From contig NZ_CP028811.1 of NCBI RefSeq assembly GCF_003055625.1, positions 3,224,001 to 3,288,000 on the forward strand: a stretch of DNA of 64,000 bases, read 5' to 3'. Position 1 is the first letter of the stretch. The number at the start of each line of letters is the position of its first letter. Of this stretch, positions 1 to 30,362 are shown piece by piece. The notes below the pieces were generated by a model, which was given only the letters and a program-made list of their open reading frames with translations, did not search any database and was not told the DNA's origin. Made by a program: the position numbers and the translations under genes. The stretch is from Flavobacterium magnum (lineage in GTDB: Bacteria > Bacteroidota > Bacteroidia > Flavobacteriales > Flavobacteriaceae).

Positions 1-119
1 GGCTTCACGCAATTGCTACTTTTCTTGTAAAATGAAACATCTTTTTCCATAACTTCGTCCTGTCCAGCCGAGAGTACTCAGTTGAAAATGCCGCAACTGA
101 CGTGAAGCCGCCGGACGTT
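1..119 (+). repeat. attC-like site 1 (cut by window edge)
   Basis: The left R'' box (AAC) lies outside the window. The rest matches the array repeat and ends in GCCGCCGGACGTT. It opens cassette 1 with the tag GTTATGCG. Confidence 0.85.
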
Positions 120-235
120 ATGCGTGATTTTTGTTGTGTTGAAAGTTGGAGCTCCGCTCCTATTTGGTTTTGGGTGATTGGCTTGTGACTACATACGTTT
201 ACGTTGTCTTGGGATCTATATTAAAACCAACGCAT
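120..235. other. Cassette 1: ORF-less 116-bp cassette, copy A
   Basis: No credible coding sequence. A 22-codon frame starting at the ATG of GTTATG exists, but it is broken by a one-base deletion in the copy at 17903. Three possible stems are visible: GGAGC-TCC-GCTCC (148-160), ACAtACG-TTTA-CGTTGT (191-207), and a closing 8-bp pair TTGGTTTT (164-171) with AAAACCAA (223-230). The cassette ends CGCATAAC, matching its start tag. It is identical to the copy at 24019. A structured RNA or a regulatory cassette are possible readings; neither is proven. Confidence 0.7.
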
Positions 236-360
236 AACAGCGGTTTCACGCAATTGCTGCTTCTCTTGTAAAATGAAACATCTTTTTCCATAACTTCGTT
301 CTGTCCAGCCGAGAATACTCAGTTCCAAAAGCCGCAACTGACGTGAAGCCGCCGGACGTT
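236..360 (+). repeat. attC-like site 2 (reference copy)
   Basis: 125 bp from R'' AAC to R' GTT. Left arm: AAC, one unpaired base, then GCGGTTTCACG and CAATTGC. Right arm: GCAACTG, one extra A, CGTGAAGCCGC, the unpaired CGGAC, then GTT. The arms pair as R''/R' and L''/L' stems with an asymmetric bubble and an extrahelical base, as in integron attC sites. The middle (about 75 bp) is not palindromic but is highly conserved in all copies, including TTGTAAAATG and CCATAACTTCG. It closes cassette 1 and opens cassette 2 (GTTACCTGCC). Confidence 0.9.
266..298 (+). promoter_or_regulatory. Candidate promoter inside the attC-like site (representative copy)
   Basis: TTG (266-268), 22 nt, then TAACTTCG (291-298). 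The Flavobacterium promoter consensus is TTG, 17-23 nt, TAnnTTTG, so this is one base off. The motif recurs in the sites: the TTG is intact in 34 of 41 and TAACTTCG in 39 of 41. The same octamer TAACTTCG lies upstream of fabV (40594-40601, minus strand). The inference is that each site may drive the gene to its right. Confidence 0.4.
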
Positions 361-402
361 ACCTGCCATTTTTTGAAGAACGGAATAACTAAAATTTAAA
401 GT

Positions 403-1248
403 ATGCGAAAAACGTTATTATTATTACAATTTCTCTCAGTTATAATTCATACTTCAGCACAAGATTTGAAATTTGATAAGAAATTTGTCCAGAGCGAAGA
501 CAAATGGGTAGCTTTTAAACCTGATAGCATTGGAAGTTATAACTTTGGATTTATATACATTGATGCTCAGGCTGGATTGACTCTTGACTATGCTGGTTCA
601 TTTACTATTGACAAAAATGGAGTTTTTCTCCCAAAAGCAAAAGAAATTCAAGGAGCTATGAAATATCGATTGGAACCTAACAATGTCTTAGTTGCCCATA
701 TCCCTGAATCTAAAATATCACAACTGAAAGTCTCCCTTATTCCAGATTTTCTAGCGGGGTATAAAGTTGGAGAAAATACTGTCGAACGTCTATATAAGTG
801 GGGATATATGTATAATGGTTGGGGAGAATGTAATAAAGCATTGGAATTCTTAGAGAAGGCAGCTAAATTGGATACCAATTATAAAGGTCTAGCTGTTGAA
901 CTTGCATATTCATATAACTGTCTCGAACAATATCAAAACGCTATTACAGTTTTGAAAACCGCCTTAAAGTCAAATCCAAAAGATTCGTACACCAACAAAG
1001 AATACATTTTTGCATTATCAAAAAACAATCAATTAGATGAAGCAAAAAAAATCTACAAAAAATCACTCGAAACAAGTAGCGATAAAACTTATCAAGTTGA
1101 AAATGCGTTTAATATTTTACAAGGTTATTTTTTAAAAAAAGACAATATAGAATTTCAAAATTGGCTAGCCGAAACAAAAGATCTGTATTCCTCAAATAGT
1201 CATATAAATGGAATCGTCGAAAAAATGAAAACGCAGATAAAAAATTAA
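403..1248 (+). CDS. Cassette 2: secreted TPR-repeat protein
   Basis: 281 aa. A signal peptide covers residues 1-19 (ends HTSAQ). The N-terminal half has no family I recognise. Residues about 130-240 hold tetratricopeptide-like helices (RLYKWGYMYNGWGECNKALE, then ALKSNPKDS and LDEAKKIYKKSLE), which usually bind partner proteins. It starts 45 nt after the R' box, typical of this array. The tags GTTACCTGCC and GGCAGGTAAC frame the cassette. Predicted periplasmic; function unknown. Confidence 0.8.
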   Translation: MRKTLLLLQFLSVIIHTSAQDLKFDKKFVQSEDKWVAFKPDSIGSYNFGFIYIDAQAGLTLDYAGSFTIDKNGVFLPKAKEIQGAMKYRLEPNNVLVAHIPESKISQLKVSLIPDFLAGYKVGENTVERLYKWGYMYNGWGECNKALEFLEKAAKLDTNYKGLAVELAYSYNCLEQYQNAITVLKTALKSNPKDSYTNKEYIFALSKNNQLDEAKKIYKKSLETSSDKTYQVENAFNILQGYFLKKDNIEFQNWLAETKDLYSSNSHINGIVEKMKTQIKN

Positions 1249-1258
1249 AACGGCAGGT

Positions 1259-1383
1259 AACAGCGGTTTCACGCAATTGCTCCTCCCCTTGTAAAATGCA
1301 CTGCTTTTTTCCATAACTTCGTTTTGTCCAGCCGAGGGTACTCAGTTCCATAAGCCGCAACTGACGTGAAGCCGCCGGACGTT
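1259..1383 (+). repeat. attC-like site 3
   Basis: 125 bp. Closes cassette 2 (GGCAGGTAAC) and opens cassette 3 (GTTATATGCC). Confidence 0.9.
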
Positions 1384-1428
1384 ATATGCCAGCTTATGCG
1401 CGATGTACCTAAAATCAACTTCCAAAAA

Positions 1429-1899
1429 ATGAAACGAAGAGTATTTTTCGTCGTTTCGCTTTTTATAGTTTCACTTTTTATAGTTGCTTCATGCACTGAA
1501 AAGAAAGTTGATTTAGGAATTATCAGAAAAACACATAAACCAAGTCCTAATCTTATTTCTTTCGATCTCAAATACAATTTATCCAAAGAAGACAGAACGA
1601 ACAGAAACTTTACGAAACTTAGTTCAAGAAAGTTCGATCTTGAAATTGACACGATAAAATATACTAGAGATGAGATTTACATTTCTTATTTATCGACAAT
1701 GACAGGCTGTATTGAGTATGCTGGTGATTTTGATATAAAAGGTGATTCGTTAAATCTAAAATTAATACAGTTGAATAATGTCGTGTGTCCAGAAGTTGAA
1801 GTAGCCAGAGTAATCTATAAAATTCGAAATCCTAAGAATATCCAATATAAAATTTCTAAACCTGAATTTGGTAAGTATGGCGAACCAAACCAAAAATAA
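1429..1899 (+). CDS. Cassette 3: lipoprotein, paralogue of the cassette 29 protein
   Basis: 156 aa from ATG 1429. The frame is open back into the repeat through a GTG (KPPDV...), but the lipoprotein signal MKRRVFF...FIVASC fixes this start. The lipobox Cys is residue 22. The segment DTIKYTRDEIYISYLSTM followed by YAGDFDIKGDSLNLKL aligns with DTIMYKKNELYISYLTFM and YRGDFKIKGDSLLLEI in the lipoprotein at 21712. The two cassettes therefore carry one family. Function unknown. Confidence 0.8.
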   Translation: MKRRVFFVVSLFIVSLFIVASCTEKKVDLGIIRKTHKPSPNLISFDLKYNLSKEDRTNRNFTKLSSRKFDLEIDTIKYTRDEIYISYLSTMTGCIEYAGDFDIKGDSLNLKLIQLNNVVCPEVEVARVIYKIRNPKNIQYKISKPEFGKYGEPNQK

Positions 1900-1910
1900 A
1901 GCCGGCATAT

Positions 1911-2035
1911 AACAGCGGTTTCACGCAATTGCTACTTTCTTTGTAAAATGTAGCCGCTTTTTCCATAACTTCGTTTCGTCCAGCCGAGAGTACTCAGTTC
2001 CAAAAGCCGCAACTGACGTGAAGCCGCCGGACGTT
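1911..2035 (+). repeat. attC-like site 4
   Basis: 125 bp. Closes cassette 3 (GGCATATAAC) and opens cassette 4 (GTTGTGTGCA). Confidence 0.9.
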
Positions 2036-2059
2036 GTGTGCAATCAATCCTAAAATGAT

Positions 2060-2647
2060 GTGAAAGATTATTCGTATATAAATGATATCTCAAAAGCAGA
2101 CGATTTACGTTTGTACGTAATCGAACATGCATTACATATTGAAAAATTAGCTTCTGAAACTATTGGTTATATACTTGGCATTGATTGGAAAAATTCAAAA
2201 TCATTTGGCAATGGATCAACTGCATTGTCTTTTAATCAGAAAATTCAAATTATCCAAGATTTAAAAGGTTTAGATAAAATCGACATTCAAAAATTTAGTG
2301 ACTTCATGGGAATTCGAAATAAATTCGCTCATGTATTATCTATTAAAACTTTTGATGATTTTTTCAATAGCGGTAAAAACGGAGCTGATGTCAAAAAAAA
2401 TCTAATCAAATATTACGGTTTCGAAAATTCGGAGATCGATGAAGGATTGAAAAACAAAATTTATTTCTATCGCTTATTTTCTGATTTGCTGCAAATCCTA
2501 ACTCAAAAGATAGCTAAGCACGAATTTGAAAGAGGAAAAAAGGCTTTTACTTCTGAATATTTACTTTCGGTTCTAAGTGAAGTTGGGAATTTAGAAAACG
2601 GAGATGATGTTCTTAAAAAAGCATTTAAAAAAGTTGATCCGAGGTAA
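2060..2647 (+). CDS. Cassette 4: HEPN/MltR-like soluble protein
   Basis: 195 aa, GTG start at 2060. The two ATGs just upstream are out of frame and the frame closes at a TAA at 2051. No signal peptide; mostly helical and charged. Residues about 88-95 read MGIRNKFAH, an R-x4-H motif inside a helix, as in HEPN ribonucleases and MltR-type proteins. HEPN proteins are common toxins or antiphage effectors, and toxin cassettes are frequent in large integrons. No antitoxin partner is visible in the cassette. The family call is tentative. Confidence 0.7.
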   Translation: MKDYSYINDISKADDLRLYVIEHALHIEKLASETIGYILGIDWKNSKSFGNGSTALSFNQKIQIIQDLKGLDKIDIQKFSDFMGIRNKFAHVLSIKTFDDFFNSGKNGADVKKNLIKYYGFENSEIDEGLKNKIYFYRLFSDLLQILTQKIAKHEFERGKKAFTSEYLLSVLSEVGNLENGDDVLKKAFKKVDPR

Positions 2648-2663
2648 AATTTTGACTGCACAC

Positions 2664-2788
2664 AACAGCGGTTTCACGCAATCGCTACTCACTTTGTAAA
2701 ATGAACGCGCTTTTTCCATAACTTCGTTTTGTCCAGCCGAGAGTACTCAGCTTCGAAAGCCGCAACTGACGTGAAGCCGCCGGACGTT
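2664..2788 (+). repeat. attC-like site 5
   Basis: 125 bp. Closes cassette 4 (TGCACACAAC) and opens cassette 5 (GTTAGCAGC). It has the CAGCTTCGAAAGCC variant in place of CAGTTCCAAAAGCC, and ATCGC in the left arm. Confidence 0.9.
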
Positions 2789-2814
2789 AGCAGCAACGCT
2801 AAAAAAACTAGACG

Positions 2815-3189
2815 ATGAAAAACATATTAATAGCATTATTTATTCTCTTTGTTGCTTCTATGAAAGCCCAAAATAAAATTAGCGCTAGTGATAAAGCGTT
2901 AGCCGCAATTGACGCAATTGAAAAGTTCGAAGCAGAAATAAAAATTCCAAACCGATTAGCATGTTTAACTCAAATCTTTCCCAAAGATGTAGATTTTAAT
3001 TATGTTGGTCAATGCTATAGACCAACTAAAGAAGAGTTACAATTATGGCGAGAATGGATTATAAAAAACAAAGAAAATTTAGAGTATGAGCAGGAAGAAC
3101 CTGAAGGAAAGTTTGATTTTATTTTCGGTGAATTCAATATAGTATTCAATGATAAAAAAGGTACAATTCGAAATTCATACTGCAATTAA
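2815..3189 (+). CDS. Cassette 5: small secreted protein of unknown function
   Basis: 124 aa. The signal peptide MKNILIALFILFVASMKAQ is cleaved after about residue 19. The mature part is acidic with three Cys (CLTQIF, GQCYRP, SYCN at the end) and a helical RPTKEELQLWREWI stretch. No family recognised. The stop lies 11 nt before the next site. Confidence 0.75.
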   Translation: MKNILIALFILFVASMKAQNKISASDKALAAIDAIEKFEAEIKIPNRLACLTQIFPKDVDFNYVGQCYRPTKEELQLWREWIIKNKENLEYEQEEPEGKFDFIFGEFNIVFNDKKGTIRNSYCN

Positions 3190-3200
3190 GCGCAGCTGCT

Positions 3201-3325
3201 AACAGCGGTTTCACGCAATTGCTGCTTCCCTTGTAAAATGTAACACCTTTTTCCATAACTTCGTTTGGTCCAGCCGAGAGTACTCAGTTCCAAAAGCCGC
3301 AACTGACGTAAAGCCGCCGGACGTT
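3201..3325 (+). repeat. attC-like site 6
   Basis: 125 bp. Closes cassette 5 (AGCTGCTAAC) and opens cassette 6 (GTTAGCAGAC). The right arm has GACGTAAAGCC instead of GACGTGAAGCC. Confidence 0.9.
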
Positions 3326-3348
3326 AGCAGACATTTTGCCCAACAACC

Positions 3349-3816
3349 ATGAACAAACTACCATTTATAATTTTACTATTAATTTTCATTGCAAGTTGCA
3401 AAGAAAAAGTTCCGAAAACTGTAGAATTTGACTTGCTTCCAATGAAGGTGCCTGCTGATACAACAAACGGCAAACAGTTTATTACTATCATTCCTTTTAA
3501 TGCAATTCATAAAATCAGTTTAACGAAAACTGAATTAAAAATATTGAATGAAAAATTAAATAAAAGTGTGATGATTTATAATAAAATCCATACAAAAAAA
3601 ATTGATCTGAAAAATTACAACAGACAATACTTTCCGTACATAAATGCAAAAGGTGAAAAACAAGTTGAAATAAATTGCTTTTGTCAATTCTTTGACAACG
3701 ATAACTGGAAATCTAAGCGCGTAGATGTTTCAGACGGTGGAGAATCTTATTTCAATTTGAATGTAAATTTAGACGACAATTCATTTTCGGATTTAAGTGT
3801 GAACGGTCGAGCGTAA
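3349..3816 (+). CDS. Cassette 6: lipoprotein of unknown function
   Basis: 155 aa. Lipoprotein signal MNKLPFIILLLIFIASCKEK with Cys at residue 17. The mature domain contains a CFCQFFDNDNWKSKRV stretch and probably beta structure. No family recognised. The end tags of this cassette do not match each other (start GTTAGCAGAC, end GGCATATAAC), unlike nearly all neighbours, so it may be a fusion of two cassettes. Confidence 0.75.
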   Translation: MNKLPFIILLLIFIASCKEKVPKTVEFDLLPMKVPADTTNGKQFITIIPFNAIHKISLTKTELKILNEKLNKSVMIYNKIHTKKIDLKNYNRQYFPYINAKGEKQVEINCFCQFFDNDNWKSKRVDVSDGGESYFNLNVNLDDNSFSDLSVNGRA

Positions 3817-3831
3817 TCAAAAACGGCATAT

Positions 3832-3956
3832 AACAGCGGTTTCACGCAATTGCTACTTCCGTTGTAAAATGAACCACCTTTTTCCATAACTTCGTTCTGT
3901 GTCGCCGAGAGCACTCAGTTCCAAAAGCCGCAACTGACGTGAAGCCGCCGGACGTT
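3832..3956 (+). repeat. attC-like site 7
   Basis: 125 bp. The left tag GGCATATAAC does not pair with the start of cassette 6. Opens cassette 7 (GTTATCTGAT). Central variant GTGTCGCCGAGAGCACTC. Confidence 0.88.
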
Positions 3957-3996
3957 ATCTGATATTTATGTTGCGAACGTGTAAAATCGTACTATT

Positions 3997-5049
3997 ATGA
4001 AATTTATTCATTTACTTTTATTTTTGGTTATATCGTTTAATATTGATGCACAAATTAACACCGATTTTGTCGTTTACAATGATCAAATATGGAGCTTAAC
4101 GAAAGATGGAAAAATTGACGTATTCGATTATAAAAATGAAACTAAAGTTGAAAACTTAATTTCATATTCAGATACAATTTATATAATAACTAAAGACAAA
4201 AATAATATTCCAATAATAATAGATAATAAAAACGCAATAAAGAAATATGATAATCAAACTAAATCTTGGAGTAAGATTTATAACTATATTAAAAAGCCTT
4301 TGGGAGTTTTGTTTGACAAAGAAAATAATTGTTACTCAATTACAGAAAAAGGAATAATAAATTTAAAAAGCGGCAAGACATATTTCTCAAATAAATCTCT
4401 AAATCACCAAATCCATTATAATGACAATTGGTCAAGACGTGCGCTAACTTTTTTTATGGATAAAGACGATAATATTTGGATTGGTTTTGGATATGGCGAA
4501 TGGGGTGGAGATATATTTATATTTAATACAAAAAGTAAAAAATTTATAGTTCCTGAACTTGGCAAATTTGAAATTGAATTGTATCCAGTGAAATCGTTTT
4601 TTGAAGACGAGAATTATGTTTATCTTTCTTCAGGTTTAGCACATATGTCAACAAGTGGTTGCATCGTTCAGTTTGATAAATTTCATGCTTCATTCTTTTT
4701 TAAAAGCGAATCAGAATGGCAAAAAGTAAGTGGTGATGAAAATAAGCCCAAGTATATCCCTGCACAATATATTGGACCGGCCACATTTAATAAATACAAC
4801 AATTCGATTTATTTTTATTCTCAAGATGGAATTTTCAAGGGTGATGTCAAAAAGAATCTTTCTGAATTGAAAGATTGGGAAAATATAATTAAGCCAAATT
4901 TGCAATGGAAAGTTGGACAACCTGACGCCGTTGGTTCGCCGATGAATGTTTCCAGGATTACAATTATTGCAAATGATAAATTTGTGATACAAACACAAAA
5001 CAATGGAGTTGGTTATTTTAATGGAAAGGAATTAATTCTAATAAATTAA
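3997..5049 (+). CDS. Cassette 7: secreted propeller-like protein
   Basis: 350 aa, the largest intact cassette gene. Signal peptide MKFIHLLLFLVISFNIDAQ. The mature part has repeated blades such as DKDDNIWIGFGYGEWGGD and FNKYNNSIYFYSQDGIF, resembling two-component-regulator propeller or NHL-type beta propellers. There is no kinase, membrane or sorting domain after the propeller, so a binding or scaffold role in the periplasm is the most that can be inferred. The cassette tags GTTATCTGAT and ATCAGATAAC match perfectly. Confidence 0.8.
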   Translation: MKFIHLLLFLVISFNIDAQINTDFVVYNDQIWSLTKDGKIDVFDYKNETKVENLISYSDTIYIITKDKNNIPIIIDNKNAIKKYDNQTKSWSKIYNYIKKPLGVLFDKENNCYSITEKGIINLKSGKTYFSNKSLNHQIHYNDNWSRRALTFFMDKDDNIWIGFGYGEWGGDIFIFNTKSKKFIVPELGKFEIELYPVKSFFEDENYVYLSSGLAHMSTSGCIVQFDKFHASFFFKSESEWQKVSGDENKPKYIPAQYIGPATFNKYNNSIYFYSQDGIFKGDVKKNLSELKDWENIIKPNLQWKVGQPDAVGSPMNVSRITIIANDKFVIQTQNNGVGYFNGKELILIN

Positions 5050-5058
5050 ACATCAGAT

Positions 5059-5183
5059 AACAGCGGTTTCACGCAATTGCTGCTTCCCTTGTAAAATGAA
5101 CCACCTTTTTCCATAACTTCGTTCTGTCCAGCCGAGAGTACTCAGTTCCAAATGCCGCAACTGACGTGAAGCCGCCGGACGTT
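5059..5183 (+). repeat. attC-like site 8
   Basis: 125 bp. Closes cassette 7 (ATCAGATAAC) and opens cassette 8 (GTTATCTACAGG). Confidence 0.9.
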
Positions 5184-5204
5184 ATCTACAGGCTTTGACC
5201 AACG

Positions 5205-5576
5205 ATGAAACCAATTATGACCGAAAAGCATGAAAATAAATATTCGATAGATTATTCAACATTTATAAAAAATGTTGAAAACATTACTGGCTTAAGTCCG
5301 GCGGATTTGCTTCATAGTTATGAAGAATTTATTTCCGGGTTAAATGAGTATGAAAATGTAGAAAACTATTCTGAATGGCAATATGAATTTGATTACGATG
5401 CTTACATCCGAATAGAAATTGAAAAAGTAGTTTCAAATGTTGAACTTTCAAATAATACTTTTTTAAAACAATTTAAAGATAAGGTTGAACTTTTGGATTC
5501 TCAATTTAAAAAGTTTCTTAAAAATGGAGACGATGACAAATGGTGGGAAACACCAAAAATCAAGTTCCAAAATTAA
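5205..5576 (+). CDS. Cassette 8: small acidic cytosolic protein
   Basis: 123 aa from ATG 5205; ATG 5217 (MTEKHENK) is an alternative. No signal peptide or membrane segment. Rich in Glu, Tyr and Asn, with a LSPADLLHSYEEFISGLNEY helix and a C-terminal WWETPKIKF. Size and composition resemble immunity or antitoxin-like proteins, but no family is recognised. The tags match with one mismatch (GTTATCTACAGG and CCTATAGATAAC). Confidence 0.75.
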   Translation: MKPIMTEKHENKYSIDYSTFIKNVENITGLSPADLLHSYEEFISGLNEYENVENYSEWQYEFDYDAYIRIEIEKVVSNVELSNNTFLKQFKDKVELLDSQFKKFLKNGDDDKWWETPKIKFQN

Positions 5577-5586
5577 GCCTATAGAT

Positions 5587-5711
5587 AACAGCGGTTTCAC
5601 GCAATTGCTGCTTGTCTTGTAAAATGAACCGCCTTTTTCCATAACTTCGTTTTGTCCAGCCGAGAGTACTCAGTTCCAAAAGCCGCAACTGACGTGAAGC
5701 CGCCGGACGTT
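5587..5711 (+). repeat. attC-like site 9
   Basis: 125 bp. Closes cassette 8 and opens cassette 9 (GTTGTGCGCA). Confidence 0.9.
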
Positions 5712-5749
5712 GTGCGCAACTTATACCAACCGTGTCGTAAAATATACAT

Positions 5750-6367
5750 ATGAAAAATTTTTATATACTTAGCTTTTTAGTATTAATATTAGGCTTAGTT
5801 TCATGTCAAGAAAAGATAAAGAAAGCTGAATTTCGTAAAAAAGAAGTTCATTTAATTGACAATAAAATCATAAATAATTTTTTAGAATATTGTTTTAAAA
5901 ATGATAGTGGAATCGTGAAAGGTTGTAAAGTTGTTTTAGATCATGATTTATCGCAAGCACCTTTAAGTGAAGAAGAGTTATTATCAGTAGATGGGTTGGA
6001 TTCAATATTCACTAAAGAAGACATTGATTATATACATAAACAGAATAAAATTAAAGACGATTTTAGATTGCAACAGCAATACTTTAAAAATTCTATCATT
6101 GTATCTGCTGATACAATTAGTTCAATGATAAAAAAGAGTAAAGATAAAGATGGTCGATCTACACTTTTCTGGGAGGAATTTTATAAAAAATATGGTGATG
6201 GATTTTGTACACTCAGCAAACCTTTATTCTCTAAAAATCATCAAATTGTAATTATCAGCAGTGGCTATCATTGTGGAGGATTATGTGGTGGCGGTGGAAC
6301 TTATATTTTAAAAAAAGTTGACTCCAATTGGAAAGTCATCGCTACAATCAGGAATTGGGTAAGTTAA
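5750..6367 (+). CDS. Cassette 9: lipoprotein, paralogue of the cassette 24 protein
   Basis: 205 aa. Lipobox LGLVSC with Cys at residue 20. The C-terminal half shares a pattern with the lipoprotein at 18177: LDSIFTKEDIDYIHKQ, then FWEEFYKKYGDGFC, KPLFSKNHQIVIISSG and a final NWVS. A Gly/Cys loop HCGGLCGGGG stands where the cassette 17 protein has SCCGCSY. It may be a fold for an envelope lipoprotein shared by several cassettes. Function unknown. Confidence 0.78.
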   Translation: MKNFYILSFLVLILGLVSCQEKIKKAEFRKKEVHLIDNKIINNFLEYCFKNDSGIVKGCKVVLDHDLSQAPLSEEELLSVDGLDSIFTKEDIDYIHKQNKIKDDFRLQQQYFKNSIIVSADTISSMIKKSKDKDGRSTLFWEEFYKKYGDGFCTLSKPLFSKNHQIVIISSGYHCGGLCGGGGTYILKKVDSNWKVIATIRNWVS

Positions 6368-6376
6368 GCTGCGCAC

Positions 6377-6501
6377 AACAGCGGTTTCACGCAATTGCTG
6401 CTTCCCTTGTAAAATGAACCGCCTTTTTCCATAACTTCGTCTTGTCCAGCCGAGAGTACTCAGCTTCGAAAGCCGCAACTGACGTGAAGCCGCCGGACGT
6501 T
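6377..6501 (+). repeat. attC-like site 10
   Basis: 125 bp. Closes cassette 9 (GCGCACAAC) and opens cassette 10 (GTTAGCTGCC). CAGCTTCGAAAGCC variant. Confidence 0.9.
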
Positions 6502-6528
6502 AGCTGCCATTGCAAACTCAAATCGCGC

Positions 6529-7071: not shown

Positions 7072-7194
7072 CAGCGGTTTCACGCAATTGCTACTCCCAT
7101 TGTAAAATGAACTTCATTTTTCCATAACTTCGTTTTGTCCAGCCGAGAGTACTCAGTTCCAAAAGCCGCAACTGACGTGAAGCCGCCGGACGTT
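7070..7194 (+). repeat. attC-like site 11
   Basis: 125 bp. Closes cassette 10 (GGCAGCTAAC), overlapping its stop codon. Opens cassette 11 (GTTATGGGCA). Confidence 0.9.
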
Positions 7195-9407: not shown

Positions 9408-9411
9408 CGCC

Positions 9412-23241: not shown

Positions 23242-23367
23242 AACAGCGGTTTCACGCAATTGCTGCTCACTTTGTAAAATGAACCGCCTTTTTCCATAAC
23301 TTCGTTTTGTCCACGCCGAGAGTACTCAGTTCCAAAAGCCGCAACTGACGTGAAGCCGCCGGACGTT
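23242..23367 (+). repeat. attC-like site 32
   Basis: 126 bp, GTCCACGCCGAG subtype. Closes cassette 31 (AACAGCTAAC) and opens cassette 32 (GTTAGCTGTC). Confidence 0.9.
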
Positions 23368-23405
23368 AGCTGTCAGTTTTCGGCGAACCTAGAAAAATCA
23401 CGTAA

Positions 23406-23882: not shown

Positions 23883-23893
23883 AACCGTCAGCT

Positions 23894-24018
23894 AACAGCG
23901 GTTTCACGCAATTGCTGCTTCCTTTGTAAAATGAACGACCTTTTTCCATAACTTCGTTCTGTCCAGCCGAGAGTACTCAGTTCCAAATAACGCAACTGAC
24001 GTGAAGCCGCCGGACGTT
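23894..24018 (+). repeat. attC-like site 33
   Basis: 125 bp. Closes cassette 32 (CAGCTAAC) and opens cassette 33 (GTTATGCG). Right-arm entry is AATAACGCAAC. Confidence 0.9.
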
Positions 24019-24134
24019 ATGCGTGATTTTTGTTGTGTTGAAAGTTGGAGCTCCGCTCCTATTTGGTTTTGGGTGATTGGCTTGTGACTACATACGTTTA
24101 CGTTGTCTTGGGATCTATATTAAAACCAACGCAT
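24019..24134. other. Cassette 33: ORF-less cassette, copy D
   Basis: 116 bp, identical to copy A at position 120. Adjacent to a further copy (cassette 34) with only one site between them. Confidence 0.7.
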
Positions 24135-24258
24135 AACAGCGGTTTCACGCAATTGCTACTTTCCTGTAAAATGAACCACCTTTTTCCATAACTTCGTTTT
24201 GTCCAGCCGAGAGTACTCAGTTCCAAAAGCCGCAACTGACGTGAAGCCGCCGGACGTT
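24135..24258 (+). repeat. attC-like site 34
   Basis: 124 bp, one base shorter (TTTCCTGTAAAA; promoter-like TTG is CTG). Lies between two ORF-less cassettes. Confidence 0.9.
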
Positions 24259-24374
24259 ATGCGTGATTTTTGTTGCGTTGAAAGTTGGAGCTCCGCTCCT
24301 ATTTGGTTTTGGGTGATTGGCTTGTGACTACATACGTTTACGTTGTCATGGGATCAATATTAAAACCAACGCAT
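24259..24374. other. Cassette 34: ORF-less cassette, copy E
   Basis: 116 bp. Like copy C (GTCATGGGATCAATATT) with one further change (TTGCGTTG for TTGTGTTG). Not identical to neighbouring copy D, so the tandem pair is not a fresh duplication. Confidence 0.7.
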
Positions 24375-24499
24375 AACAGCGGTTTCACGCAATTGCTGCT
24401 CCCCTTGTAAAATGAACCGCCTTTTTCCATAACTTCGTTTTGTCCAGCCGAGAGTACTCAGTTCCAAATGCCGCAACTGACGTGAAGCCGCCGGACGTT
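24375..24499 (+). repeat. attC-like site 35
   Basis: 125 bp. Closes cassette 34 (CGCATAAC) and opens cassette 35 (GTTATATGCC). Confidence 0.9.
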
Positions 24500-24529
24500 A
24501 TATGCCATTTTTAACGAATCGAACGTAAA

Positions 24530-25048
24530 ATGACCAGCCGAATTATATGCGTTGTCTTTATTGTGCTACTTACAAGTTGTAAGTCGAAAACACCAATGGA
24601 GCAAGTTCTTGCTGACACGAATAAAAAGAATTCTTTCTTTGACTTGTACTATTTATCCGGCAGTAATTTCTACATTACTACAAAATTCAGCGAGTGCGGT
24701 GAATGGGGCGGTCATAAAGAAGGAATGAAAATCTTTTCTGATACAAAAAGAAAACAATATAAACTTGACTATTACAAACTGTCTTTTGACTGCGAAAACG
24801 TGCAAAACGCAAACATCGATACTTTAGTTCATAAAACAATCTTGTTAAATAGCCATATCCAAAACGCAATAAATAAATACTTGCAAGAATTAGTAATTGC
24901 GAAAGTCAGGTCAAAATTTCCGGGTCATTCCGGCAATTATTTTACCGCTGCGAGTGCTGATTCGACATTTCGCATTGAGCTTTATGATGCTGACAAAAGG
25001 AATTTAAAAAGCTATAGTCATCTGTTGAAAAAATTGCGCCTGAATTAA
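24530..25048 (+). CDS. Cassette 35: lipoprotein of unknown function
   Basis: 172 aa. Signal MTSRIICVVFIVLLTSC with Cys 17. The mature part has KFSECGEWGGHKEGMKIFSD and FRIELYDADKRNLKSYSHLL. No family recognised. The tags GTTATATGCC and GGCATATAAC match exactly. Confidence 0.76.
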   Translation: MTSRIICVVFIVLLTSCKSKTPMEQVLADTNKKNSFFDLYYLSGSNFYITTKFSECGEWGGHKEGMKIFSDTKRKQYKLDYYKLSFDCENVQNANIDTLVHKTILLNSHIQNAINKYLQELVIAKVRSKFPGHSGNYFTAASADSTFRIELYDADKRNLKSYSHLLKKLRLN

Positions 25049-25058
25049 AACGGCATAT

Positions 25059-25183
25059 AACAGCGGTTTCACGCAATTGCTGCTTCCCTTGTAAAATGTA
25101 ACCGCTTTTTCCATAACTTCGTTTTGTCCAGCCGAGAATACTCAGTTCCAAAAGCCGCAACTGACTTGAAGCCGCCGGACGTT
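25059..25183 (+). repeat. attC-like site 36
   Basis: 125 bp. Closes cassette 35 (GGCATATAAC) and opens cassette 36 (GTTAGCTGAG). Right arm GACTTGAAGCC instead of GACGTGAAGCC. Confidence 0.9.
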
Positions 25184-25253
25184 AGCTGAGAGCCTACAAA
25201 TGCAAAATCCTGAAATAGGTTGACAAAAAATCAACAACTATTTACAGGACAAT

Positions 25254-25679
25254 ATGAAAGCAAAGAAACATCCCTGTCAGAAAAAATGCGTGGGATTTGA
25301 CTTAAAACTAAAAATCATTGATGAAGTTTGCAACGGACAGATTTCCGTCAACCACGCATCGGTAAAATACCAGGTCGGGCGCAATGCGATCTATTATTGG
25401 TTGCAAAAATTTGCTACTTTAGAGCAAAAACAAAAAGGAATGTCAAATAAGGACGAAATAAAAAAACTAAAGGAAAAGATTCAGGAACTGGAATTCATTA
25501 AAGACTTCCAACAGATGATAATTGCCGAAGCAGAGATTGATACCGGGAACGATTACGCAAAAAAGTCGCTGCCCGAATCATTGGCCAAAGAAGTGGAACT
25601 AAAGAAAAAAGCCATTTTAAAATCAAATGGATCTGCCAGTGCTTCGGGATATCAAGACAAGCCTTCTACAAAAAAATGA
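25254..25679 (+). CDS. IS3-family transposase OrfA
   Basis: 141 aa. Helix-turn-helix LKLKIIDEVCNGQISVNHAS with YYWLQKF, then a coiled-coil/leucine-zipper region (KDEIKKLKEKIQELEFI). It ends in a run of seven A (25670-25676) overlapping the ATG of orfB, the usual slippery site for -1 frameshifting to make OrfAB. Confidence 0.9.
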   Translation: MKAKKHPCQKKCVGFDLKLKIIDEVCNGQISVNHASVKYQVGRNAIYYWLQKFATLEQKQKGMSNKDEIKKLKEKIQELEFIKDFQQMIIAEAEIDTGNDYAKKSLPESLAKEVELKKKAILKSNGSASASGYQDKPSTKK

Positions 25680-26496
25680 ACCTTTGCAAAAAACAAAAAT
25701 CCGATAATCAAAAACTCGTAAAAATGGTCGTCGATAAAAGGGCTGAAATCAACCAGGCAACCCTAGGCCGTAAGCTATACCAGCTTTTAAAGCAGGACAT
25801 GAACCGACACAATATCAAGATGGGACGCGACAATTTCTTTGGATTTCTAAGGGCTCATACCCTACTGGTGGCCAAACAACGAAACTTTACGCGAACCACT
25901 AACTCCAATCATCTCTTCAGGAAATTTAAAAACCTGGTGCAAAACAAAGTACCTGATCAACCCGAGGAACTTTGGGTCAGCGATATTACTTATCTAAGAT
26001 TAAATGGGAAAAATGCCTATTTAGCTTTAGTAACCGATGCCTATTCCAAAAAAATAATGGGCTATCACCTGGCAACAAATATGAAAGCTTCATTATCGAT
26101 AGAAGCATTAAAAATGGCCCTAAAAAACAGAAAGTATCCAAATAGAAAACTAATACATCACTCCGATAGAGGATTACATTACTGTTGGCCGGAATACGTC
26201 AAAATCCTGCAGGAAAACGACATCCTGATAAGTATGACAGAACAATATGATCCATATGAAAATGCCATCGCTGAACGAATGAACAAACCATGAAATATGA
26301 ATTTGGACTCAATCAGACTATCCCAAACAAAACAATAGCTTTGAAGATGGTCAGGCGCGCTGTAAGGATTTATAACACTTTAAGGCCGCACGACAGCTTA
26401 AAAGGTAAAACGCCAGTTAGCGTGCATCTAAACGCAGATATGCCCTATAAATCATATCGTAGGAATAAAGAAATTATTTATCTAAATTTGAATTGA
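25676..26496 (+). pseudogene. IS3-family transposase OrfB, frameshifted
   Basis: The integrase core is visible: WVSDITYLRLNGKNAYLALV (first Asp), LIHHSDRGLHYCWPEY (second Asp), ENAIAERMN (Glu). The frame breaks near 26290, right after the Glu, and continues in another frame as KYEFGLNQTIPNKTIAL to 26496. The catalytic core is split from its C-terminus, so the element is probably unable to move on its own. Confidence 0.88.
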
Positions 26497-26558
26497 AAAC
26501 AGAGTAAAAATCTGTCAACCTATTTCAGGACGTTACACCTCAAGAACCGTAATCGAAC

Positions 26559-26981
26559 ATGAAAAAAATCATATTTGTTTTTCTCTTAATTTTCATGTCG
26601 TGTAAAACAACTAATGAAATCCGATACGTAAATCAATATGATTGCTCTTTAGAATATCTCGATTCTAAATTTGAATTCAAATTTGAGCTAATTGAATTTC
26701 ATGAAAATTTCGCGTATTGTGCGACTGAAGGCATTCCGTATGCTTTATTAATTGGAAAAACTGACGATCCAAGACTGCCTAAAAAAATCTCTGTATTTTC
26801 CCAGTGTAATAATAACCATTACACTGTAGGTGAAAAAATGATAATCGTTCCGAAAGAAAATCCAACAAAAAGCACGTCACTTAAACCAATATATTTCACA
26901 AAAGACACCATTGTGAATTCCGTCAAGTTCAGAAAGATAATTGGTTGCGAAAATAAAATTATTTGGGGAAATCCAAAATAA
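26559..26981 (+). CDS. Cassette 36: lipoprotein of unknown function
   Basis: 140 aa. Signal MKKIIFVFLLIFMSC with Cys 15. The mature domain has four more Cys (YDCSLEY, YCATEG, SQCNNNHY, GCENK). It lies 28 nt right of the IS3-type element. No family recognised. Confidence 0.76.
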   Translation: MKKIIFVFLLIFMSCKTTNEIRYVNQYDCSLEYLDSKFEFKFELIEFHENFAYCATEGIPYALLIGKTDDPRLPKKISVFSQCNNNHYTVGEKMIIVPKENPTKSTSLKPIYFTKDTIVNSVKFRKIIGCENKIIWGNPK

Positions 26982-26990
26982 ACGTCGCAC

Positions 26991-27115
26991 AACAGCGGTT
27001 TCACGCAATTGCTACTTTCCTTGTAAAATGAACCGCCTTTTTCCATAACTTCGTTCTGTCCAGCCGAGAGTACTCAGTTCCAAATGCCGCAAATGACGTG
27101 AAGCCGCCGGACGTT
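26991..27115 (+). repeat. attC-like site 37
   Basis: 125 bp. Left tag CGTCGCACAAC does not pair with the start of cassette 36. Opens cassette 37 (GTTAGCTGTG). Right arm GCAAATGACG. Confidence 0.9.
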
Positions 27116-27186
27116 AGCTGTGATTTTGGCGTGACGACCAAACTATTACGTTCCATCAGCAGCAGAATCCTTTTAAAAATAATCCG

Positions 27187-27194
27187 TATATTTG
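27187..27194 (+). promoter_or_regulatory. -7 element in front of the cassette 37 gene
   Basis: TATATTTG, a full match to TAnnTTTG, ends 4 nt before the GTG at 27199. Transcription would begin at about the start codon, so the message would be leaderless or the true start lies a little further on. No clear TTG upstream. Confidence 0.4.
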
Positions 27195-27198
27195 CTTT

Positions 27199-27831
27199 GT
27201 GCAAAACAGTATTAAAAATGACTTACGAAATATCTTTTCAGGAAAGAGCGAAATTAGGTTTGGAGCAACTATCCAAGCAATCGCCGGTTACCTTAACAAT
27301 GGCACGCAAGCAAGCAAAGAAATTGCAGACTCAAAGTACTTCAAAAAACAAGAAGCAGAGAAGTTAGATTCTTACATCTCTGAAAATAATCTTTGGAAGG
27401 AGATTGACTTTTCACAGTACGTAAGTGAAGGCGCTGAACAGAAAGTTTATCTTAAGGATTCAGAACATGTAATCAAACTTAATGATGCTATTTATTATGC
27501 TTGTTGGAAAGATTATTTTCTAAATTTATTACTCCATAATTATTTCTTTCCCGACACAGCTTACAATTTGCTTGGGTTTACAAAATCTGAAAATGTCATT
27601 TATGCTGTTGTTGAGCAATCGTACGTTGCAATCACCGGTCCAACAGACTTAAATGTGGTCAGGAAATTCTTGGAGCAAAATGGTTTTCAAAATAATCGTA
27701 ACAATGATTATTACAATCCTGAATTAGGAATAATTATTGAAGATCTTCACGATGAAAATGTATTGACGCGAAATGAAATTCTTTATTTTATTGACACAGT
27801 ATTTTTCGTTACAGACGAGTTTCTGAGCTAA
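27199..27831 (+). CDS. Cassette 37: kinase-like protein of the polyvalent-protein type
   Basis: 210 aa, GTG start. The N-terminus SGKSEIRFGATIQAIAGYL and the core WKEIDFSQYVSEGAEQKVYL, VIKLNDAIYYACWKDYFLNL match what I know of the Ser/Thr/Tyr kinase-like domain found in polyvalent phage proteins. A VIKL strand would hold the ATP lysine and IEDLHDENVL is an HRD-like catalytic loop (D-x-H-x-x-N). Typically found on phages and mobile elements. The cassette seems to have its own promoter. Substrate unknown; a role in phage conflict is inference. Confidence 0.72.
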   Translation: MQNSIKNDLRNIFSGKSEIRFGATIQAIAGYLNNGTQASKEIADSKYFKKQEAEKLDSYISENNLWKEIDFSQYVSEGAEQKVYLKDSEHVIKLNDAIYYACWKDYFLNLLLHNYFFPDTAYNLLGFTKSENVIYAVVEQSYVAITGPTDLNVVRKFLEQNGFQNNRNNDYYNPELGIIIEDLHDENVLTRNEILYFIDTVFFVTDEFLS

Positions 27832-27847
27832 AATTAAAACCACAGCT

Positions 27848-27972
27848 AACAGCGGTTTCACGCAATTGCTGCTTACCTTGTAAAATGTAACCGCTTTTTC
27901 CATAACTTCGTTCTGTCCAGCCGAGAATACTCAGCTTCGAAAGCCGCAACTGACGTGAAGCCGCCGGATGTT
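27848..27972 (+). repeat. attC-like site 38
   Basis: 125 bp. Closes cassette 37 (CACAGCTAAC) and opens cassette 38 (GTTATAGGCA). The bubble reads CGGATGTT instead of CGGACGTT. CAGCTTCGAAAGCC variant. Confidence 0.9.
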
Positions 27973-28011
27973 ATAGGCAAGTTTATCAGCAATCGAACTA
28001 AAAGTAAACTC

Positions 28012-28458
28012 ATGAAATTTACAATTTACCTTTTTGTTTTCTTTTCCTCAATATACGGATTTGCACAAAATCAACGAGAAATTTTACTTGTCAGCACTAG
28101 TTTTTATAATCAAAAATGCAAAAATGTAGCGTTTAGAGTTAATCAAAAACAAATTCAAATAGATAATTGTTATGATTCTGAAACAAACGAATTTAACATT
28201 ACCACAACCATAGATATAAAATCAGAGAAAGTAGTTCAGCAGATTTATAAAATGAGTACGGAAGATTTGAAATATTATGAATCGCAAATCGATTCTACTA
28301 AAAATTGTGATGCAATCAAACCAATTAAAATCTTTGTATTTGAAAGAGGAGTTAAAACTGAAATAGAATGGAGTGGAATACAAAATTGTTATCCTAAATC
28401 CGTGAAAAAAATTGTTGAATCTCTTGAACAACTTTTTATCAAGTACAAATTAGAGTAA
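28012..28458 (+). CDS. Cassette 38: small secreted protein
   Basis: 148 aa from ATG 28012. Signal peptide MKFTIYLFVFFSSIYGFAQ. Four Cys in the mature part (QKCKN, DNCYDS, KNCDAI, QNCYPK) could form two disulfides. Ends in a helix VKKIVESLEQLFIKYKLE. No family recognised. Confidence 0.75.
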   Translation: MKFTIYLFVFFSSIYGFAQNQREILLVSTSFYNQKCKNVAFRVNQKQIQIDNCYDSETNEFNITTTIDIKSEKVVQQIYKMSTEDLKYYESQIDSTKNCDAIKPIKIFVFERGVKTEIEWSGIQNCYPKSVKKIVESLEQLFIKYKLE

Positions 28459-28483
28459 AGTATGAGTAATCAAGCCTGCCTAT

Positions 28484-28608
28484 AACAGCGGTTTCACGCA
28501 ATTGCTTCTTCGATTGTAAAATGAAACACCTTTTTCCATAACTTCGTTTGGTCCAGCCGAGAATACTCAGTTCCAAAAGCCGCAACTGACGTGAAGCCGC
28601 CGGACGTT
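28484..28608 (+). repeat. attC-like site 39
   Basis: 125 bp. Closes cassette 38 and opens cassette 39, which carry the same tag (GTTATAGGCA / TGCCTATAAC). Last fully formed site of the array. Confidence 0.9.
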
Positions 28609-28631
28609 ATAGGCAAGCTTTAAAAAACTAT

Positions 28632-29048
28632 ATGAAACGAATAATCCTGCTTCTGATATTGGGTTTTTCAAGTTGTGGAACAACAAAAGAGAATCGACAA
28701 ATGAAAGATATTTATATTCAAGAATTCAAGACAGTGTATTTTAAAAGTCTACTAAGAAAAGGCTTTAATAATAGCAAAGGTTATAATGATGCCGTGAAAA
28801 TTGACAATAGTCATTTTGTCGAACCAATTTTAAGTTCTGAAGATTATAAATATATTGATAGCTTGACCACAATTGGTAATAAATTCATGGCTACTGATTC
28901 TCTTGAGAGTTTTGGGCGAAGAGCAGAAGGTGCAGCAGGGAAAAGAGTTTTTTATTATGCGTTAGAAAAATATAACAGTAAATGGCTTGACAGTATCTGC
29001 AAGAAACGGTTGGAAAGATATTGGAAAGCGGAAAGAAGTTTGCGTTAA
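28632..29048 (+). CDS. Cassette 39: small lipoprotein
   Basis: 138 aa. Signal MKRIILLLILGFSSC with Cys 15. The mature part is helical and basic (VYFKSLLRKGFNNSKGYNDA... RRAEGAAGKRVFYYALEKYN... ERYWKAERSLR). No family recognised. Confidence 0.75.
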   Translation: MKRIILLLILGFSSCGTTKENRQMKDIYIQEFKTVYFKSLLRKGFNNSKGYNDAVKIDNSHFVEPILSSEDYKYIDSLTTIGNKFMATDSLESFGRRAEGAAGKRVFYYALEKYNSKWLDSICKKRLERYWKAERSLR

Positions 29049-29062
29049 AAAAGCCTGCCTAT

Positions 29063-29212
29063 AACAACGGCTTCACGCAATTGCTACTTTCCGTGTAAAA
29101 TGAACTTATTTTTTCCATAACTTCGTTTTGTCCAGCCGAGAGTCCAGTTCAAAATGCCGCAACCGACGTGAGCTCGGTAAAGCGAACAACCGAAGGAAGC
29201 CGTCGGACATAT
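29063..29212 (+). repeat. attC-like site 40, degenerate
   Basis: The left half is normal (closing cassette 39 with CTGCCTATAAC). The right arm is broken: CCGACGTGA is followed by a 25-base insertion (AGCTCGGTAAAGCGAACAAC and more), then AAGCCGTCGGACATA, with no GTT. The R' cleavage site is therefore lost. Confidence 0.75.
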
Positions 29213-29228
29213 ATTGAAAACTGAGCAA

Positions 29229-30182
29229 ATGAAGATCGATCTAAAAAACAGGGTTCAAAAAAAATGGTTTGCTGTTATAACTACAGTTGTTATAGCTGAG
29301 CTATTTACTTTGTGGGGAATTTACGGTATTAAAGAATATGGAGTATTTTTGTTCTTTCTGATTCCATTTTTCATTGGAGCAGGATCAGTTTTACTGTTCG
29401 GCTTCAAAAACCAGGTGACTTTGAAAGAAGCTTGTAAAATTGGACTTGTAAGTGTGAGTATGTATGCGCTGTGCCTTATATGTTTCGCAATCGAAGGCCT
29501 CATTTGTATCCTAATGGCGTTCCCAATTGCGGCAATTTTCACATCAATTGGCGCAGTAATTGCTCATAATTTTACCAACAGGAGTACCATGAACGCATCT
29601 TCTACATTCTTAATTTTGGTCGCAGCATTGCCAGCATTGTCATTTCTCGAAAGAGACTCCACCCCTGATTTGACCTCGGTTGTCTCGTCAATTGAAATTA
29701 ATGCCTCTCCGGAAACAGTCTGGAAGAACGTTGTTGAATTTCCGAAATTGAAAGAGCCTAAAGAATTTATTTTTAGAACAGGTATTGCCTATCCTGTAAA
29801 CGCCGAAATCAAAGGTCGGGGGATTGGTGCCATAAGATATTGCAATTTCACAACCGGAAAATTTATTGAGCCGGTAACTGTATGGGACGAACCGAATCTC
29901 TTAAAATTTAGTGTTGCGGAACAACCTGCGCCACTCAAAGAAATTAGTTTTTGGGACATTGATGCTCCGCATTTACATGACTATTTCGTTTCGAAACAAG
30001 GTCAATTCAAACTTATTCGACTATCAAATGGCAATACGAAATTAGAGGGAACAACCTGGTACTATCACGACATAAAACCTGCTTTCTATTGGAAGATTTG
30101 GAGTAATTATATTGTTCACAAAATTCATTACAGGGTTTTGAATCACATTAAAACCCGTTCCGAAAAACGAAAGGTAACATAA
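29229..30182 (+). CDS. Cassette 40: membrane protein with SRPBCC-like C-terminal domain
   Basis: 317 aa from ATG 29229 (a TTG at 29214 would add five residues). Four membrane helices in residues 15-145 are followed by a START/SRPBCC-type polyketide cyclase-like domain (VVSSIEINASPETVWKNVVE, GRGIGAIRYCNFTTGKFIEP, TKLEGTTWYYHDIKPAFYW). This type binds hydrophobic ligands. It is better conserved in composition than the array genes and sits between the two decayed sites, so it may be a trapped former cassette. Its stop TAA overlaps the degenerate R'' box. Confidence 0.78.
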   Translation: MKIDLKNRVQKKWFAVITTVVIAELFTLWGIYGIKEYGVFLFFLIPFFIGAGSVLLFGFKNQVTLKEACKIGLVSVSMYALCLICFAIEGLICILMAFPIAAIFTSIGAVIAHNFTNRSTMNASSTFLILVAALPALSFLERDSTPDLTSVVSSIEINASPETVWKNVVEFPKLKEPKEFIFRTGIAYPVNAEIKGRGIGAIRYCNFTTGKFIEPVTVWDEPNLLKFSVAEQPAPLKEISFWDIDAPHLHDYFVSKQGQFKLIRLSNGNTKLEGTTWYYHDIKPAFYWKIWSNYIVHKIHYRVLNHIKTRSEKRKVT

Positions 30183-30362
30183 CAGTGGCTTCGCGCACCC
30201 GATCGATAGCGAATGGAGCGAAGCTGATTGCCGATTTCCGTGTAAAATCAACTTCTTTCTTCCATAAATTAGTTTAAGCTACGCTTCCGATCGGCCTTCG
30301 CAATTGTTTCTACAACCGAAAAACACTCAGGTCCAAAAACCGCATCCGGCTGCGCCGGATAA
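30181..30362 (+). repeat. attC-like site 41, heavily degenerate
   Basis: Still recognisable: AACAGTGGCTTCGCGCA at the left, CCGTGTAAAATCAACTTCTT in the middle, and ACTCAGGTCCAAAAACCGCA near the right end, with extra segments between. It marks the right edge of the array. There is no GTT core and no usable right arm. Confidence 0.65.

Follow-up and report, generated by a model that had tools for sequence, protein, structure and literature searches.

Integrons are the best known of the bacterial systems for gene capture. Is the long series of gene cassettes at the start of this Flavobacterium magnum stretch one of them, and which recombinase would serve it? The window is the whole stretch of 64,000 nt that was analysed (GCF_003055625.1, contig NZ_CP028811.1, 3,224,001 to 3,288,000, forward strand). 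Its first-pass annotation described an integron-like cassette array with no integrase in view.

A 179-kb cassette array

Our recount of positions 1-30362 gave 39 paired and 2 degenerate sites, reproducing the 41 sites of 124-126 bp (first partial, last two degenerate) that had been reported. No integrase was in view because the window edge cuts the array off from its head. The array reaches 148 kb further left, to genome position 3,075,586, and its head adjoins a tyrosine-recombinase gene, P0001 (3,074,332-3,075,381, +). The full array contains 253 paired sites on one strand (+), the strand of P0001, and spans 179 kb, or 5.2% of the chromosome. Judged from their sequence, positions 1-30362 very probably belong to a sedentary chromosomal element of integron type in Flavobacterium, one of very large size, and form its distal part. 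The features are:

1..30362, +, distal part of the cassette array, continuing leftward to genome 3,075,586, downstream of P0001
1..119, +, attC-like site, starting 6 bases left of the window
236..360, +, attC-like site, AAC to GTT, the same pattern as in the next 37 paired sites
1259..28608, +, 37 further paired attC-like sites of 124-126 nt each, starting at 1259, 1911, 2664, 3201, 3832, 5059, 5587, 6377, 7070, 7549, 8175, 9493, 10139, 10721, 12596, 13463, 14038, 14743, 16608, 17203, 17778, 18018, 18760, 19410, 20063, 20793, 21546, 22150, 22391, 23242, 23894, 24135, 24375, 25059, 26991, 27848 and 28484
29055..29186, +, degenerate site (site 29063), 38 bits with site model R1
30181..30362, +, last site, strongly degenerate (5 mismatches in the left motif, no R1 match, end as in the first-pass annotation)
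403..30182, nearly all +, cassette ORFs, with examples in the next five lines
403-1248, +, cassette ORF, TPR
13611-14036 and 17351-17776, +, near-identical cassette ORFs
18904-19398, +, cassette ORF, DinB
27199-27831, +, cassette ORF, Kinase-PolyVal
22564-23016, -, the single cassette ORF on the opposite strand
17903..18017, +, short cassette without ORF, flanked by sites 17778-17902 and 18018-18142
8364..9362, +, transposase inserted in the array, HTH_38 and rve domains
10911-11912 and 14932-15933, two more near-identical transposase copies

The cassettes mostly contain one gene each, some have no ORF, and each closes with an attC-like site; one ORF-less cassette of about 122 nt is present in 21 copies over the whole array. 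The cargo includes strong matches to the anti-phage defence families AbiU, HEC-01A and PDC-S15. An Rfam search of the window at gathering scores returned only two Flavo-1 RNAs, and none at the repeats.

Cassette ends and site folding

The two ends of a cassette match each other. A perfect complementary run of at least 7 nt was found in 34 of the 38 window cassettes between paired sites, and also in the cassette ending at degenerate site 29063, in close agreement with the 36 of 40 counted originally. Over the whole array such runs occur within 241 of 252 cassettes, against 27 of 253 when the comparison is made across one and the same site; shuffling of the cassette-end partners (200 times) gave a mean of 20.6 and a maximum of 35. 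No perfect run is longer than 10 nt. At position 11, 243/253 cassettes have an A facing a C on the top strand (T facing G on the bottom strand). With this wobble allowed, the median stem has 15 pairs, which fits the 7-14 nt of complementarity first described. Changes in the tag are matched as well: 22 of the 31 differing tag positions are compensated. Different species share near-identical cassettes whose boundaries lie exactly at G/TT. For instance, loci L094 and L105 have a 1303-nt cassette in common (95% identity); the identity begins at GTT after unlike upstream sites and ends at the GTT of the cassette's own site.

The R' boxes had been called looser than GTTRRRY. Looser they are, but they obey a rule of their own, GTT-A-NNN-G-NN-A, in which A, G and A are conserved at 91%, 96% and 98% over 253 sites. 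The predicted fold of the bottom strand is more stable than that of the top strand in 252/252 sites. As in an integron, the cassettes of this array are delimited by palindromic attC-like sites with bottom-strand folding, and conserved asymmetries point to a folding bottom strand, the state known from attC. One structure count used 45 sites selected for stem pairing and is therefore biased towards structure. An excess of L-stem wobbles on the bottom over the top strand (51 vs 32, p 0.048) was too weak to use.

The recombinase at the array head

A genome-wide PF00589 search matched three genes. For two of them the best NCBIfam models were XerD and XerC; the third is P0001, which lacks the IntI-specific domain. 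TIGR02249 gave no match in this genome at E <= 1e-60. With these two models, no tyrosine recombinase with the IntI-specific domain, the target of the search that had been suggested, was found in this genome. P0001 retains the catalytic residues. Only 58 residues lie between R237 and H296, leaving P0001 without the additional domain that marks IntI. The corresponding spacing is 100 in 21/21 IntI proteins. Of 65 related loci, 60 have 58-59 residues there and the remaining 5 have 66. The predicted structure likewise shows no insert at the position of the IntI-specific domain. Against TIGR02249, P0001 scored 182 bits in two stretches, below the cut-off of 265, and in a phylogenetic tree the IntI sequences form one clade with P0001 outside. 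Nor could P0001 be assigned to the Xer proteins: it scored 194 of 220 bits with NF040815, 185 of 335 with XerC and 161 of 330 with XerD, and the XerCD sequences form a separate clade (100/94).

The structural model predicts an extra N-terminal alpha/beta domain at residues 4-56, outside residues 69-341, the span of the P0001 model covered by the VIA list. In Pfam this domain matched nothing above cut-off, with weak DUF5710 matches in 2/8 (best E 0.0043). The absence of an IntI-like recombinase from the genome or its relatives had been named as grounds against an integron-like array. Half of this is literally the case; the cassette-system reading is nonetheless strengthened, because another recombinase family occupies the place of IntI.

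An attI-like junction lies about 200 nt behind the P0001 stop codon. Of 28 loci examined, 21 have the junction 44-222 nt past the stop, and 9-10 of the 10 positions of its tag match the first cassette's end. In 3/28 the match is found beyond a site end at a distance of 0.8-3.6 kb, and in 4/28 it covers 7-8 of 10 positions; the poor first-cassette match in L058 reflects its doubtful first site call. As far as sequence can tell, an attI site beside the recombinase gene, a hallmark of integrons, is thus found here as well. Together with the matched ends and the cassette shared between species, the junction supports an integron-like array in a Flavobacteriaceae chromosome. Of 39 related recombinase loci, 28 have attC-like sites downstream on the strand of the gene. 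The remaining 11, without a strict site downstream on their own strand, count against an integron-type reading, and only 3 of them end at a contig edge within 400 nt. Among alphaproteobacterial homologs, the loci tried contained no R1 site, and four loci no array-like repeats.

Distribution of sites and recombinase

Model R1 was trained on 45 of 46 candidate sites (one left out), to which several genomes of Flavobacterium contributed along with five named loci. It found sites in 226/249 Flavobacterium genomes, in 146/296 genomes across the phylum and in 0/14 outside it. The large surveys scored no more than 13 or 11 candidates in each genome, and their site numbers are therefore lower bounds. 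Arrays and P0001-type recombinases occur together in many genomes: within Flavobacterium, at least 10 sites were present in 117/150 genomes with the recombinase vs 27/99 without (p 1.8e-15). Other results point the opposite way: sites are present in 78 of the 99 genomes that lack a recombinase match at E <= 1e-50, and of 18 site-rich ones among these that were re-searched, 13 gave only matches as weak as those of Xer proteins. R1 also scored weakly on true IntI sites (best 25 bits). True IntI (TIGR02249) occurs in 85/296 sampled genomes of the phylum. Since 34 of the 146 site-bearing genomes also have an IntI match (counted by eye), some of the phylum's sites may be IntI attC.

True IntI cassettes have matched ends too, in 14/16 cassettes (L211 and L214, with L213 left out; in L211 the matching is independent of the sense in which the sites are read). 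At ten IntI loci a classic-attC scanner gave no signal above that of shuffled controls, and the IntI sites were read from repeat families instead; their alignment was poor at the right end.

Discussion

The array is best read as an integron-type cassette system with a recombinase lineage other than IntI, integron-like in its working but not an IntI integron. P0001 would be the acting enzyme. It would recognise the folded bottom strand, made up of an R stem, a bubble of 1 and 5 nt, and an L stem holding conserved non-Watson-Crick positions, and would cut beside G/TT. Through single-strand exchange, cassettes would be freed as circles, with both ends of one cassette fully paired, and the circles would be inserted at attI or at other sites. 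The system may be active today.

The array might instead be a classical integron that lost its IntI, that is, an orphan attC cluster next to an unrelated recombinase. True IntI integrons do exist elsewhere in the phylum, and their cassettes share the end matching and, by eye, a similar site geometry. We consider this improbable: no sampled genome from its genus, family or order has an IntI match at E <= 1e-60, yet 226/249 Flavobacterium genomes have sites; arrays recur with P0001-type recombinases; and the attI-like junction directly adjoins the P0001-type gene. Moreover, end pairing runs past position 11 in 11/16 IntI cassettes vs 0/253 here. Slightly less probable still is mobilisation by the host XerC/XerD pair, with another role for the neighbouring recombinase. 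The genome has Xer-like genes, and the 13 of 18 site-rich genomes that lack close homologs of P0001 and give only Xer-level matches suit this idea, but orphan site clusters are described as common in IntI systems too in an excerpt of PMC9668308, and a distinct recombinase upstream of same-strand sites, with a junction behind it, is left unexplained. A plain array of structural or transposon-derived repeats, its units spread by homologous recombination, is very improbable: the repeats are strongly conserved within the genome, middle part included, and could recombine, but this explains neither the matched ends and compensated tags, nor the G/TT boundaries behind unlike upstream repeats, nor the junction beside the recombinase.

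Read as an integron-type system, the array resembles the Vibrio superintegron (IntIA, VCR) in its recombinase, adjacent attI-like junction and long one-orientation array of mostly one-gene cassettes, in its palindromic sites with a better-folding bottom strand and crossover at G/TT, and in its ends matched within cassettes and dispersed duplicate cassettes. It differs in that P0001 lacks the IntI-specific domain and lies outside the IntI clade, and in the R box rule and the A.C at position 11. Integron integrase genes are usually divergent from their cassettes, with exceptions; the Flavobacterium gene runs in the cassette direction, which, like the missing domain, speaks against the integron-type reading. 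At 253 cassettes the array exceeds that of Vibrio vulnificus, given as 217 in an excerpt of PMC8946536. A survey tool based on the IntI domain would report no integrase here, as for a CALIN (an attC cluster without integron integrase), although this array, unlike a CALIN, has a recombinase and an attI-like junction. P0001 differs from XerA and other simple tyrosine recombinases by its predicted N-terminal domain and its link to cassette arrays.

The IntI-specific domain is called essential for integron function in an excerpt of PMC8138268, which describes an integron-like tyrosine-recombinase subgroup and, in that excerpt, makes no link to Bacteroidota cassette arrays. We found no description of the system in the open-licence PMC literature; an earlier one is possible in subscription papers and preprints, which lie outside that scope. 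We lean towards the view that folded-strand cassette capture arose or persists in a second recombinase lineage apart from IntI, as a major Bacteroidota gene-capture platform, working without the IntI domain, perhaps by means of the N-terminal domain, and keeping cassette ends matched. A cassette system of 226/249 Flavobacterium genomes would then be under-counted, because surveys based on the IntI domain miss it as a complete integron. Because that domain is absent, the part of the protein that recognises folded attC sites becomes testable, as does the question of cassette exchange between the IntI and P0001 lineages. Finally, because their cargo includes matches to AbiU, HEC-01A and PDC-S15, the arrays may serve to store genes for defence.

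Extent and composition of the array

All 41 attC-like sites that the first-pass annotation had placed in the window were confirmed, 39 as paired and two as degenerate sites, and a covariance model of such sites (R1, built from 45 sites) matched 40 of the 41, all on the + strand. In this complete, 3.46 Mb chromosome the window covers genome positions 3,224,001–3,288,000, and the sequence to its left revealed that it takes in just the distal portion of the array. The whole array contains 253 paired sites, all on the + strand and 124–127 nt each, 230 of which have a perfect left motif. Its limits, from the paired-site search, and the gene that heads it are:

Genome 3,074,332–3,075,381, + strand: P0001, tyrosine-recombinase gene
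Genome 3,075,980, + strand: first paired site
Genome 3,252,608, + strand: end of last paired site

With the first cassette and degenerate end counted in, it is 178,777 bp long and makes up 5.2% of the chromosome; its GC content is 35.1%, versus 49.7% in the left flank and 45.9% in the right flank. The middle of the site (e.g. window 260–320) contains TTG-N22-TAACTTCG, which may resemble the Flavobacterium promoter consensus; expression of a cassette might thus be driven by the site in front of it.

Of the 253 cassettes (including that at attI), 221 have their longest ORF on the + strand, 4 have it on the - strand and 28 have no ORF of at least 60 aa. Similar cassettes form 27 clusters scattered across the array, including an ORF-less cassette of ~122 nt in 21 copies. 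One five-member cluster was rejected as true copies, as its members share an inserted transposase. Three near-identical transposase genes (HTH_38, rve) lie within cassettes, the first encoding one residue fewer than the others, and a second insertion-sequence type inside the array appears in the ORF list as three separate frames; two Flavo-1 RNAs (Rfam RF01705) lie outside the array:

Window 8364–9362, 10911–11912 and 14932–15933: transposase genes
Window 25254–26496: second insertion-sequence type, reading frames 25254–25679, 25676–26293 and 26290–26496
Window 53452–53531: Flavo-1 RNA, 62.6 bits
Window 58548–58625: Flavo-1 RNA, 75.3 bits

The cargo scan covered 149 of the 201 listed cassette proteins and found 49 Pfam families in total, most in a single protein. 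The PADLOC matches, taken as the best 25 of 96 families with one protein each, include AbiU (1e-170), HEC-01A (1e-137), PDC-S15 (2e-94) and PD-Lambda-2_B (1e-44).

Matched cassette ends and strand polarity

In 241 of 252 cassettes, complementarity between the two ends runs to 7 nt or more; the same comparison made across a site gives 27 of 253, and shuffling the partners gives a mean of 20.6. The perfect run is at most 10 nt in every cassette, and position 11 has, on the top strand, an A facing a C in 243 of 253. This A·C pairs on the bottom strand only; allowing the wobble there gives a median end stem of 15 pairs. Between homologous cassettes with unlike tags (the bases at the cassette ends), 22 of 31 differing positions were altered at both ends with pairing kept, and compensation was full in 6 of the 14 distinct contrasts that made up this count (a further 311 pairs did not differ in their tags, and 2 were left out).

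Folding of the bottom strand was a check proposed in the first-pass annotation, and predicted energy favours this strand in every one of 252 sites. In 244 of 252, predicted stability is higher for the circle form than for the array form. Among 105 distinct arm pairs from relatives, 69 have T·G on the top strand at L-stem pair 5, which makes that pair a mismatch on the bottom strand. The bottom strand is also described as the one used by IntI, the integron integrase, with polarity set by unpaired bases (PMC3053210, PMC8946536).

The array lies at genome 3.08–3.25 Mb and dnaA at 1150. If the origin is beside dnaA, the bottom strand of the sites would be the lagging-strand template. This would be opposite to the arrangement described as usual for large Vibrio integrons (PMC8946536), despite the 253 cassettes.

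The recombinase is distinct from IntI

PF00589 matches three genes in the genome. Two have XerD and XerC as best NCBIfam models; the third is P0001 (349 aa), which ends ~200 nt before the first cassette and whose nearest named homologs, at 71 and 68% identity, come from Flavobacterium. P0001 is below the cut-off of all its best NCBIfam models: XerA-type (194 of 220 bits), XerC (185 of 335) and integron integrase (182 of 265, split over two stretches). Residues R207, K232, H296, R299, H322 and Y331, to which catalytic roles are assigned in the family, are invariant in 58 homologs. The R237–H296 interval has 58 residues in P0001, 58–59 in 60 of 65 related loci and 66 in the other five; the matching interval has 100 in IntI (21 of 21). 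The AlphaFold model (mean pLDDT 83, pTM 0.55) predicts helix 243–256 followed by helix 273–287 with no insert between them, as well as an N-terminal alpha/beta domain; XerA and IntI4 rank equally as the nearest solved structures. IntI formed one clade excluding P0001 in both trees (133 rows; 62 rows with bootstraps). Support was 97/94 for the P0001 group and 91/90 for another group, made up mainly of Bacteroidota homologs, and the trees give no firm order of these two relative to IntI.

Linkage of recombinase and sites

In a strict-geometry scan of 39 recombinase loci (40 stretches), 28 had one or more sites downstream of the gene and on its strand, for example 18 in 20 kb in genome G209, 25 in G128 and 14 in G119, against 0–1 in shuffled copies. 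No such site was found at the other 11 (L042, L044 with L045, L053, L055, L056, L057, L060, L089, L090, L091, L101); in three of these the contig runs out within 400 nt, while sites on the opposite strand occur in L044, L090 and L101. R1 gave 51 matches at E ≤ 0.1 in 30 of 80 named loci, and 49 of these matches share the strand of the recombinase; L139 and L159 had contributed sites to the training of R1. Fourteen of the 30 reach E ≤ 0.01 and come from Flavobacteriaceae, Cyclobacteriaceae, Hymenobacteraceae, Marinilabiliaceae and unplaced Bacteroidota.

At 21 of 28 loci examined, a junction lies 44–222 nt behind the recombinase stop and opens the first cassette, whose tag matches its own end at 9–10 of 10 positions. 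In three others the match lies 0.8–3.6 kb away behind a site end, and in four it reaches 7–8 of 10. Judged by sequence, the junction behind the gene has the look of an attI.

Cassettes shared between arrays

Loci L094 and L105, with recombinases ~40 and 62% identical to P0001, have in common a 1303-nt cassette at 95% identity. Identity begins at the GTT closing two unlike upstream sites and falls off past the GTT of the site that belongs to the cassette itself; a single tag base differs, and its pairing partner changed too. Full-length cassettes are also shared between L086 and F. magnum (96.5% over 722 nt) and between L100 and L102 (90.6%, with differing upstream sites). One window cassette protein has homologs in 8 other Flavobacterium genomes (249 searched), flanked on both sides by R1 sites in three and near them in a fourth. 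The site arms of L142 18176–18316 (Flavobacterium aciduliphilum) and L148 13863–14003 (Algoriphagus ornithinivorans) are near-identical, which suggests cross-family exchange.

Distribution

R1 matches 226 of 249 Flavobacterium genomes (E ≤ 1e-3), 146 of 296 phylum genomes in 83 of 139 genera (E ≤ 1e-4), and 0 of 14 genomes outside the phylum (E ≤ 0.01). An IntI match is also present in 34 of the 146. Counting the best 13 sites per genome, Flavobacterium genomes with the recombinase (E ≤ 1e-50) have sites in 148 of 150 and at least 10 in 117; those without it at that threshold have sites in 78 of 99 and at least 10 in 27. Profile re-search of 18 of these 27 gave matches at Xer-protein level only in 13, broken or partial recombinase copies in four (G208, contig C84; G152, C1; G154, C2; G126, C7) and an unbroken piece in one (G079). 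Listed sites lie within ~20 kb of the copies on C84, C2 and C7, and these arrays may therefore have lost their enzyme.

Among 16 phylum genomes picked for re-search, seven (G437, G331, G282, G325, G463, G455, G288) have a listed site 2 to 35 kb downstream of a recombinase on the same strand; in G282, a separate contig carries a true IntI as well. The listed sites of G381, G534 and part of G331 are far from any such gene.

Behind a distant homolog (35%) in the gut Bacteroidaceae Mediterranea sp. An20 (L163, about 11415–17822) lie short repeats of ~59 nt, TAAC...ACATTAG, attC-like in look with ATTA replacing GTTA; they are possibly a further variant of the system. In L128 9054–14649 (Rufibacter tibetensis plasmid 1) and L134, a plasmid homolog is followed by small genes in the same direction and, by loose scanning, short sites of ~60 nt (R1 matches the plasmid weakly, E 0.03). 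Plasmid-borne versions may therefore exist.

Relation to IntI integrons

IntegronFinder 2.0 is reported to give one complete integron in Bacteroidetes proper, Salinibacter ruber M1, and also lists Chlorobi and Ignavibacteriae cases (PMC9024848). A tyrosine-recombinase classification describes the IntI insertion as essential for integron function and as incompletely conserved in an integron-like subgroup (PMC8138268). In true IntI arrays of other classes, 14 of 16 cassettes have matched ends, and pairing goes beyond position 11 in 11 of 16, whereas it does so in 0 of 253 in the Flavobacterium array; by visual inspection, the geometry of the sites is similar. With end matching and geometry alike and the recombinase distinct, the site type is therefore common to both systems and the enzyme is not. 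We class the Flavobacterium system as integron-like in its working rather than as an IntI integron.
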